From Alphaproteobacteria bacterium (lineage in GTDB: Bacteria > Pseudomonadota > Alphaproteobacteria > JAJUGE01), in NCBI GenBank assembly GCA_029268305.1, contig JAJUGE010000002.1, positions 1-64,000 on the forward strand: a stretch of 64,000 nucleotides of DNA, in the 5' to 3' direction. The translations under genes were made by a program, and so were the position numbers. This document shows, piece after piece, positions 47,188 through 49,844 of the stretch. The notes under the pieces are model-generated. The model did not search any database. It saw only the letters and a program-made list of their open reading frames with translations, and was not told where the DNA came from. How positions within the stretch are numbered: the stretch's first letter is position 1; each line of letters opens with the position of its first letter.

Positions 47188-47192
47188 GGAGG
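47188..47192 (+). promoter_or_regulatory. Shine-Dalgarno that defines the TTG start of the TGA-containing gene
   Basis: GGAGG at 47188-47192 lies seven bases before the TTG at 47200. This near-ideal site favours initiation upstream of the TGA at 47242 instead of at the GTG at 47308, which has no such site. Confidence 0.7.
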
Positions 47193-47199
47193 AGTTATC

Positions 47200-47970
47200 T
47201 TGGAATCGCGAGAAAGCATACGCGTCTTCTGGCATCCTGGCTGAACGAGCTGCCTCAGGACGAAAGAGTTCCTGTCGATCCGTGGGATCGAGTTCGAGTC
47301 TATAGACGTGGCGAACGATGAAGGCGGCATGGACGCCCTCAGGGCTCTCGGAGCCCGGACGGTTCCTGTCGTCGCCAAAGGCGATCGCTACGTGTTCGCG
47401 CAATCACTCAAGGTCGTTGCCGAATTCGTCGGATTGGCGGGAGATTTCGGGCCGGCTTTAGCCCCGCCCGAATTGATATCCCGCCTGGATCGTATCCTCG
47501 CGGGCGTACAGCGGTTCGTACGCCAGTTGCCGGAGGGCGAACTGGAAACGAAACTGAAGAACCGTAACCGGACCTACCGTCAACTCGGCCACCATGTCTT
47601 CCGCATTCCGGAGGCCTTCGTGGATGCGGTGGGTGAAGGGCGGCAACTAACCTACGAAGCGCTAACGGCTCCGCCGCCCGAAAATATCCGCTCCGGTTAC
47701 GATATCGCCGAATACGGCAGCGTCGTCCGGCAGAAAGTGAGGAACTGGTGGGACAGCACCAGCGGCGGAGGGTCGCTTCCGCAGATGGTGGACACCTATT
47801 ACGGCCAACAGCCACTGCATGAGGTTCTAGAGCGCACCACCTGGCACGCCGGCCAGCATGCGCGTCAGCTCATGTCGATCCTGGAAGACCTCGGGATAGC
47901 CGCCGATCAGCCCCTCACCGAGGCCGATTTCGCCGGATTGCCGATGCCGCAGAACGTTTGGGACGATTGA
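47200..47970 (+). CDS. Candidate selenoprotein: glutaredoxin-like UxxC domain fused to DinB-like domain
   Basis: 256 residues if the TGA at 47242-47244 is read as selenocysteine at position 15. The codons just before it give IRVFWHPG, those after it TSCLRTKEFLSIRGIEFE, so the active site would read G-U-T-S-C, the place of the first Cys in a glutaredoxin CxxC. Beta2 (FESIDV) and the cis-Pro motif RTVPVVAKGD complete the thioredoxin-like domain (about 1-80). Residues about 90-250 are a DinB/DUF664-like four-helix domain with candidate metal ligands H131/H132, H216 and H220 (TTWHAGQHARQLM). The start is a TTG with GGAGG seven bases upstream. Two hairpins follow the TGA. Alternatives: nonsense mutation, base error, or a shorter protein from GTG 47308 that would lose the redox site. 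gamma-Glutamyltransferase follows with an overlap. Confidence 0.72.
47256..47274 (+). promoter_or_regulatory. Candidate bacterial SECIS hairpin 1
   Basis: CAGGA and TCCTG pair around a 9-base loop (CGAAAGAGT) whose second base is G. The loop begins 17 bases after the TGA. Bacterial SECIS elements lie just downstream of the UGA with a small loop and a G in its first two positions, which this meets. The stem is short. Confidence 0.4.
47275..47291 (+). promoter_or_regulatory. Candidate bacterial SECIS hairpin 2
   Basis: TCGATCC and GGATCGA form a perfect 7-bp stem with the triloop GTG, whose first two bases are the GU typical of SelB-binding loops. The loop starts 38 bases after the TGA, at or just past the far end of the spacing seen in bacterial SECIS elements. 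It could act alone or stack with hairpin 1. Confidence 0.4.
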
Positions 47971-49844
47971 CATCACAGGCCCGTAGCCGCGTCGGCTCGT
48001 GCCTTGCCGCAGCAGGCGATTTGCCTGCTGCCGGTGAGCGCGAGCCGATCGGCTATCGCTGTTCCACGCTCGCGGAACGAGGGCCCGGGTGTCGGGCGCG
48101 GACATTCCTCGGCCCGCTGGTCGCGCTCTTCGTCTGCTTTCAACAATCGGACGCCCCGCTGGGTGCCGAGATGCGGCCAGATCCGGAAGCGGCGAGCGGA
48201 ATAATCGAGCGAACAGCGGTCGCGGCAAATCGCTACATGATTGCCGCCTCGCATCCGCTCGCGGCTGAAGCGGGGCTAGAGGCTCTCCGCCGCGGCGGCA
48301 GCGCGGTCGACGCCGCCATTGCCGCGCAGATGGTTCTGACCCTGGTCGAGCCGCAGTCATCCGGGATAGGCGGCGGCGGCTTTCTCCTGCACTATGATGC
48401 GGAGTCGGGGGAGCTGAAAGCTTACGACGGCCGCGAAACCGCCCCTGCGGCGGCAACGCCCGACATGTTCCTCGACGAATCCGGAGAGCCGCTCGCCTTC
48501 TTCGACGCCGTCGTCGGGGGCCTCTCCGTCGGCGTGCCCGGGCTCGTGCCGATGCTCGAGCGCGCGCATCGCGAGGAGGGCGAGCTGCCGTGGGCGAGCT
48601 TGTTCGCGGAGGCGATCGCGCTGGCCGAACGCGGCTTTCCGGTTTCACCCCGGCTGCATGCGCTGATCGCCGCCGACAAGTACCTGAAGCGGCATCCCGC
48701 CACCGCCGCCTATTTCCATACGCCGGAGGGCGCTCCGCTGCCGGCCGGCCACATCCTGCGCAATCCGGAACTGGCCGACACGCTCCGTGCCCTGGCCGAG
48801 GAAGGGAGCGCCGCAATCCTGACCGGCGAGATAGCGGCGGAGATCGTGGCCGAGGTGAGGGGCTTTGCGGCCAATCCGGGCCGGCTGAGCATGCAGGATC
48901 TTGCCGGTTACCAGCCGGTCGTCCGAGAGGCGGTCTGCAGAGCCTACCGACACTACCGCGCCTGCGGCATGCCACCCCCGAGCGCCGGGCCAATCGCCGT
49001 GCTGCAGACGCTGGGCATGCTGGAGCGGTTCGATGTCGCGGCACGCGGGCCGTGGTCGGTGGAATCGGCACATCTGTTCGCCGAAGCGAGCCGCCTCGCC
49101 TTCGCCGACCGGACGTATGTCGCCGATCCGGCTTTCGTAGACGTGCCGGTCGGAGGTCTGCTGGACCAGCGCTACCTCCTGGAGCGTTCCGAGCGCATCT
49201 GTATGGACGGCTCACTGGGCGAGGTGCTGCCTGGTACGCCCGCGATTCGCAAAACGGAGCTCGCTCCTCCAGCGGACGGAATGATTCGGCCACCATCGAC
49301 GATGCATCTGAGCGTGGTCGACGAGCAGGGCAATGTCGCTTCGCTCACCAGCAGCGTCGAGAACGCGTTCGGCTCGCGAATCATGGTGCGCGGCTTCATG
49401 CTGAACAATCAGCTGACGGACTTCTCGTTTCGGCCAGAGGTGGATGGGCGACCGGGCCCCAACCGTGCCGAGCCGGGAAAGCGCCCGAGAAGCTCGATGG
49501 CGCCGATGATCGTGTTCGGTCCGGAAGACCGGCCGGTACTTGCGATCGGGTCGCCGGGAGGCTCCCGCATCATCGGCTATGTCGGGAAGGTGCTCCTCGG
49601 TGTCATCGATTGGAACCTGGACGTGCAGCAGGCGATCTCGCTGCCGAACATCACGAACCGGAACGGCCCTACGGACCTGGAGGCCGACAGCTCGGCGGTA
49701 GCGTTGCAGGAGCCGCTGGAGCGGCTGGGGCATTCGGTGAGGCTCGTGCCGATGACCAGTGGTTTACATGGCATTCAGATCCTGCCGAGCGGCCTGCTCG
49801 GGGGCGCTGATCCGCGTCGGGAAGGGGTAGTCCTCGGCGACTGA
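47958..49844 (+). CDS. ggt: Gamma-glutamyltransferase
   Basis: Up to 628 aa; start uncertain. TTG codons at 47958, 47967 and 48021 and an ATG at 48171 are in frame; a hydrophobic stretch (FLGPLVALFVCFQQSDAPLGAE) ends just before that ATG and looks like a signal peptide, so a start upstream is preferred. The Ntn-hydrolase core is clear: AASHPLAAEAGLEALRRGGS, SSGIGGGGFLLHYD, and the autoprocessing site PSTMHLSVVDEQG where Thr (about 448) is the nucleophile. The residue after it is Met where E. coli has a second Thr. The oxyanion segment GSPGGSRIIGYV is intact. It cleaves gamma-glutamyl bonds such as in glutathione, probably in the periplasm. It overlaps the preceding redox gene by 13 bases. Confidence 0.88.
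   Translation: MGRLTSQARSRVGSCLAAAGDLPAAGEREPIGYRCSTLAERGPGCRARTFLGPLVALFVCFQQSDAPLGAEMRPDPEAASGIIERTAVAANRYMIAASHPLAAEAGLEALRRGGSAVDAAIAAQMVLTLVEPQSSGIGGGGFLLHYDAESGELKAYDGRETAPAAATPDMFLDESGEPLAFFDAVVGGLSVGVPGLVPMLERAHREEGELPWASLFAEAIALAERGFPVSPRLHALIAADKYLKRHPATAAYFHTPEGAPLPAGHILRNPELADTLRALAEEGSAAILTGEIAAEIVAEVRGFAANPGRLSMQDLAGYQPVVREAVCRAYRHYRACGMPPPSAGPIAVLQTLGMLERFDVAARGPWSVESAHLFAEASRLAFADRTYVADPAFVDVPVGGLLDQRYLLERSERICMDGSLGEVLPGTPAIRKTELAPPADGMIRPPSTMHLSVVDEQGNVASLTSSVENAFGSRIMVRGFMLNNQLTDFSFRPEVDGRPGPNRAEPGKRPRSSMAPMIVFGPEDRPVLAIGSPGGSRIIGYVGKVLLGVIDWNLDVQQAISLPNITNRNGPTDLEADSSAVALQEPLERLGHSVRLVPMTSGLHGIQILPSGLLGGADPRREGVVLGD

Follow-up and report, generated by a model that had tools for sequence, protein, structure and literature searches.

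An in-frame UGA codon and a co-inherited SECIS-like hairpin in an alphaproteobacterial gene for a glutaredoxin–DinB-like fusion protein

In E. coli, SelB loaded with Sec-tRNA-Sec binds a GU-bearing loop in the mRNA and delivers selenocysteine (Sec) at a UGA codon. The same mechanism is summarised in PMC13188914, where the legend to Figure 2A sets the constraints for bacterial SECIS elements (bSECIS): a loop 16-37 nt from the UGA, a stem of 4-16 bp and a minimum free energy (MFE) of -7.5 kcal/mol or lower. Table 1 of that paper, an inventory from 2026, lists Grx (PF00462, motif UxxC) and UXX-star selenoproteins. The Sargasso Sea paper (PMC1088965, 2005) gives ten 'glutaredoxin' UxxC selenoprotein sequences, and the GOS paper has 'Grx' and 'Grx-like' selenoprotein sets. 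A glutaredoxin–DinB fusion has no entry anywhere in Table 1 of PMC13188914, and, judged by title and opening of the abstract, none of the papers searched on selenoproteins with DinB or glutaredoxin reports such a fusion as a selenoprotein.

Here we describe a gene for a protein of this architecture, located in a 64,000-nt stretch of an alphaproteobacterial genome assembly (GCA_029268305.1, contig JAJUGE010000002.1; hereafter the window). The gene very probably encodes a selenoprotein, a glutaredoxin UxxC–DinB/YfiT-fold product in which an in-frame UGA is read as Sec through the binding of SelB to a downstream hairpin, hairpin 2 (Table 1). Like the selenoprotein Grx of PMC13188914 and PMC1088965, the fusion has a glutaredoxin domain in which the predicted Sec replaces the first cysteine of CxxC; unlike the proteins listed there it carries a DinB-like domain, and DinB is not mentioned in these listings. 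The 2005 Sargasso Sea 'glutaredoxin' set and the GOS Grx sets may include the fusion family. The glutaredoxin part is weakly similar in profile to UXX-star (NF041212, NF041211, NF041114), but it scores below every curated cut-off (35.5 against 66 for NF041212, 26.6 against 100 and 14.1 against 72 for the others), and its motif is UxxC, as opposed to the UxxT or GxGU given for that group in PMC13188914. No NCBIfam model exceeds its cut-off for the fusion. An alphaproteobacterial selenoenzyme of this type, whose relatives include some in assemblies with beta- and gammaproteobacterial labels, may have escaped notice; such genes are easily truncated or misnamed in annotation because the UGA is read as a stop. 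The family would tie selenium to DinB-fold enzymes.

The fusion gene and its relatives

Translated with Sec at the UGA, the gene specifies a protein that begins MESRESIRVFWHPGUTSCLRTKEFL... and consists of an N-terminal glutaredoxin (UxxC) domain and a C-terminal DinB-like domain; its stop codon (47968-47970) falls at the usual C-terminus of the family. The N-terminal part matches Pfam Glutaredoxin (PF00462) with an E-value of 2.8e-11 and 43.9 bits, above the gathering score of 22.9. The match of the C-terminal part to DinB_2 (PF12867; E 2.9e-4, 21.7 bits) lies below the gathering score of 24.8. In an AlphaFold (AF2) model built on 99 homologues (mean pLDDT 96), the C-terminal part aligns with the DinB/YfiT superfamily structures 6iz2 (DR0053) and 2f22 (BH3987) at TM scores of 0.76-0.81 by target length (0.80-0.81 for 6iz2), which supports a DinB-like fold despite the sub-cut-off Pfam score. 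Unlike in fold, the likeness in sequence is slight (at most 14% identity), and the two reference chains, at about 142-145 residues, are too short for an added glutaredoxin domain.

Residues C15 (Sec in the window; U counted as C), C18, H132, H216 and H220 are invariant across the 99 homologue rows, and we take the three histidines, all in the DinB-like domain, to be a metal triad by analogy. To judge by the glutaredoxin-type UxxC and by the three invariant His of the DinB-like fold, the product is probably a selenol/thiol-dependent oxidoreductase or transferase.

Table 1. Features of the fusion gene in the window (coordinates are window positions)
Feature	Position	Strand	Basis
Probable selenoprotein gene: TTG start, codon 15 UGA = Sec, 256 residues, TGA stop	47200-47970	+	read-through translation
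UGA codon at the position of the first CxxC cysteine, probably read as Sec	47242-47244	+	homologue codons
Likely ribosome binding site GGAGGAG, 5 nt 5' of the TTG	47188-47194	+	sequence; inference
Glutaredoxin domain, residues 8-65, predicted active site U15-T-S-C18	47221-47394	+	Pfam
DinB-like domain, residues 96-224	47485-47871	+	Pfam, invariant residues, fold match
Hairpin 1: 5 bp and 9-nt loop as drawn, folding as 6 bp plus a bulge; accessory at most	47256-47274	+	
Class-B-like hairpin CGAAAG/AGTTC/CTGTCG, 5 of 6 pairs	47261-47277	+	p 0.11 against synonymous recoding
Hairpin 2, probable bSECIS of class A: stem of 7 bp, loop GUG, UGA-to-loop distance 37 nt	47275-47291	+	

Full-length relatives were found in 31 of the 385 genomes of the class, 18 with an internal TGA and 13 without it; a phylum-level search of 398 genomes matched two, both known already. 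Together with a contig scan this gave 110 loci (L018-L127), of which a cut-off one (L098) could not be placed and was dropped. The codon at the UGA site is TGA in 78 of the 109 placed homologues and a Cys codon in the other 31 (TGC in 22, TGT in nine); this ratio is not the natural frequency, because the contig loci are the best 80 of 536 relatives from a search whose alignment comprised 18 UGA and four Cys forms. Merging identical 66-nt stretches left 99 distinct homologues, 68 with TGA and 31 with Cys. The motif VFWQPG ahead of the codon is common to both forms, and the TGA homologues, which come from many assemblies, keep a full-length open frame beyond it. One genome (G745) holds two UGA copies of the family (L058 and L060) and another (G305) one UGA and one Cys copy; the latter copy and a full-length Cys-form match in G366 lie outside the homologue set.

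A hairpin co-inherited with the UGA codon

The first-pass annotation of the window had placed two hairpins directly downstream of the TGA and read both as SECIS-like. Both are present with the sequences and positions it gave. Hairpin 1 pairs CAGGA (47256-47260) with TCCTG (47270-47274) around the loop CGAAAGAGT, its stem starting after 11 intervening bases and its loop after 16. Hairpin 2 pairs TCGATCC (47275-47281) perfectly with GGATCGA (47285-47291) around GTG (47282-47284), its stem starting after 30 bases and its loop after 37. The distances of 17 and 38 bases quoted for the two are right if one counts from the TGA to the first base of each loop, and wrong for the stem starts.

Folded alone, hairpin 2 reaches -8.1 (17 nt) to -8.9 kcal/mol (18 nt), and the best structures of 59-nt and 81-nt folds retain it with 6 and 7 bp, respectively; the 59-nt region as a whole is about as stable as its shuffles (z -0.94). 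Its 3-nt loop with G followed by U, its N1-N2 pairing, its 7-bp stem and its energy below -7.5 kcal/mol agree with the SECIS consensus as given in PMC13188914. Unlike the usual form described there, its loop, within the coding region, sits at the far end of the permitted range (37 nt), as the first-pass annotation had suspected, and ten relatives have the signal 14 nt closer to the UGA. An Rfam search of the window returned no match.

A hairpin of this general kind is little evidence in itself. The earlier view that chance would not produce such structure is wrong for a loose pattern (at least 4 bp, a loop of 3-9 nt, G in the first two loop positions, 16-37 nt from the UGA): it follows 1045 of the 1517 TGA triplets in the window (69%), and therefore homology carries the case for a SECIS element. 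Stems of at least 7 bp follow 117 of the 1517 triplets, and a 7-bp stem with a G[G/T]N triloop in range follows four of 1516, the hairpin 2 site among them; the loose pattern is common and the strict form of hairpin 2 is rare. Against a synonymous null the window taken alone gives p 0.05 for the pair count of hairpin 2 and p 0.02 for its MFE.

Hairpin 2, with 5-7 of its 7 pairs and the GTG loop, occurs in 58 of the 68 distinct TGA homologues (class A). In these, 93.6% of the pair cells are held, as against 41.0% for the same columns in the 31 distinct Cys homologues, a background level like that of slid controls; none of the 31 reaches six of seven pairs. The loop G and U, and indeed the whole GTG loop, are invariant in all 58, although these counts are not independent because the relatives share ancestry. 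Columns 38/46 change from U-A to C-G in seven sequences and columns 34/50 change on both sides in two, while the remaining stem pairs are invariant, vary on one side or concern the top C-G pair, which is broken in 23 of the 58 to leave a 5-nt loop CGUGN. RNAalifold recovers hairpin 2 unaided in the UGA members and finds nothing in the Cys members. Under a synonymous-codon null the mean z for hairpin 2 stability is -2.67 in class A and -0.09 in the Cys forms, and all 58 class A members use CGT for the Arg of the loop, a codon that makes up 10.7% of their Arg codons outside it. Over the 17 columns of hairpin 2 the mean energy of class A is -6.45, so many class A relatives miss the -7.5 kcal/mol mark. 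The first-pass annotation had called for just this comparison of UGA and Cys homologues, and had named the lack of a conserved hairpin, or stems broken without compensation, as what would tell against it; neither is seen, since the stem is compensated at two pairs in the UGA forms and pairs at background level in the Cys forms.

The SECIS-like character claimed for both hairpins thus stands for hairpin 2 and applies less well to hairpin 1. The pairs of the latter (-5.2 kcal/mol) are held in 62.8% of cells, other class A members fold in other registers, and in the register originally drawn 50 of 58 class A members have no G in the first two loop positions. This drifting register and the loop content led us to discard hairpin 1 as the principal SECIS. 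Its region shows a slight excess of stability over the synonymous-codon null (mean z -0.56); z is lower in class A than in the Cys forms (Mann-Whitney p 4e-4, the relatives not being independent), and AGR makes up 33 of the 43 Arg codons in class A hairpin 1, compared with 46 of 974 over the remainder of the gene. These two biases leave an accessory role open, and we take hairpin 1 to be possibly an accessory structure, not the SelB site.

Two possible positions for the SECIS element

The ten remaining distinct TGA homologues (class B) have no hairpin 2. Instead, all form hairpin B with six of six pairs, an invariant 17-nt element CGAAAG-AGUUU-CUUUCG with a GU loop that starts after 22-23 nt from the UGA. 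Pairing of hairpin B is 6.00 in class B against 3.68 under the synonymous null, and none of the 31 Cys forms reaches six of six. One homologue (L107) retains both elements, with six of six pairs of hairpin B and six of seven of hairpin A; the window, like L086, keeps five of six pairs of hairpin B. The class-B-like hairpin of the window is a possible remnant of the alternative SECIS, though taken alone it is not significant (p 0.11).

These elements bear on a rival reading, namely that the UGA is read as Sec but SelB recognises hairpin 1 or the class-B-like hairpin instead of hairpin 2. The spacing of both is more usual, the class-B-like hairpin retains five of its six pairs, and the AGR bias falls on hairpin 1; yet the register of hairpin 1 drifts, pairing of the class B type averages 4.14 of 6 in class A against a null of 3.59, and it is hairpin 2 that is kept with a GU loop. 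We regard this alternative as unlikely.

With hairpin 2 as the preferred class A element, the family would use two alternative SECIS hairpins 14 nt apart that share one UCG triplet. The recoding signal would have moved along the gene, with L107 and, more weakly, L086 and the window as intermediates, and the drifting hairpin 1 may fold the intervening RNA and so bring the far SECIS of class A close to the UGA; for this scenario as a whole the chances seem to us evenly balanced. The presence of two SECIS positions in a single gene is the unusual part of the finding.

On the full protein tree the Cys label needs four changes, at least two of them forced by well-supported branches, and four UGA/Cys changes are also found on a tree built without the SECIS-coding residues. 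Since the label needs four changes, Sec and Cys were probably swapped more than once; the protein tree, being unrooted, gives no direction for the change. On the tree without SECIS-coding residues a single class B clade is not rejected (p-AU 0.444). With its repeated Sec/Cys switches and its two SECIS positions within a single gene, the family is a natural experiment on the range over which a bacterial SECIS can move and on the route by which a Cys codon and a Sec codon interconvert.

Selenium machinery and other readings of the UGA

The assembly of the window (226 contigs, about 92% complete) encodes the components of Sec insertion. It has a tRNA-Sec that scores 72 bits (gathering score 47) and to which ARAGORN likewise assigns the anticodon TCA, selA (601.6 bits) adjoining selB (429.7 bits), and selD in the Cys form (314.5 bits). 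The SelD match (L128, contig C8 of the same genome, G000) is part of a 758-codon open frame, which makes a fusion of SelD with a further domain probable. No Sec-type formate dehydrogenase was seen in this genome, where the Fdh-alpha matches are below the cut-off and contain no stop.

Among the genomes of the class, SelA exceeds its cut-off in 17 of 18 with the TGA form and in three of 13 with the Cys form only, as against 55 of 385 overall (Fisher 6e-5). In a second set, the 49 genomes traced from 50 of the 79 contig loci that had been placed, the figures are 27 of 30 TGA genomes (nine of nine class B, 18 of 21 class A) and one of 19 Cys genomes (Fisher 2e-9), and one further Cys genome has a sub-cut-off selA fragment at a contig end; the two sets do not appear fully independent, because identical gene copies suggest shared genomes. 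The UGA genomes in which SelA does not pass the cut-off are G012 (77% complete), G776, G780 and G788, with completeness unknown or partial. On two contigs (C48 of G054 and C44 of G094) the UGA gene lies about 9-10 kb from selA.

Comparison across relatives and genomes thus establishes that the codon and the hairpin exist and are inherited together, in a genome equipped for Sec. By analogy with the E. coli system, SelB carrying Sec-tRNA-Sec would bind hairpin 2 in the mRNA about 36-37 nt 3' of the UGA, with the apical motif N1-G-U-N-N2 (here C-GUG-G) as its target, and the ribosome would then insert Sec.

We think it very unlikely that the TGA is a true stop, with the upstream piece a leader and a separate DinB-only protein starting downstream. 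An open reading frame that could encode one does exist (for example from GTG 47308, 47308-47970, 220 residues), but the Cys homologues read through the codon, VFWQPG precedes it in both forms, C18 just beyond it is invariant, and the link with SelA and with the hairpin would go unexplained. Reassignment or suppression of UGA to another residue would fit the read-through frame taken by itself, yet it is scarcely tenable: the gene, like 36 of the 78 UGA-form homologues, ends in TGA at the normal C-terminus, the alternative at the site is Cys, and the genome has selenium machinery. Equally scant credence goes to a nonsense mutation or sequencing error followed by chance hairpins, for which the abundance of loose SECIS-like forms in the window might speak, since the homologues already refute it with TGA in many assemblies, full-length frames beyond it and a hairpin confined to TGA forms.

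By eye, the fusion gene is adjoined in the window by a gamma-glutamyltransferase-like open reading frame 3' of it on the same strand (47958-49844) and by an aminopeptidase-like one. A rough all-against-all comparison of the ORFs around 80 loci (79 contig loci and the window) found no shared neighbour genes, the gamma-glutamyltransferase-like frame included; the largest cluster covers 16 of the 80 loci and consists in part of spurious ORFs. Cys relatives also occur on plasmids, annotated as 'glutaredoxin domain-containing protein' or 'DinB family protein'. Two plasmid-borne relatives, in Roseomonas marmotae (L136) and Variovorax (L137), carry annotations as full-length open frames and have amidase, isochorismatase-family and transporter genes next to them, neighbours that hint at a role in catabolic pathways.
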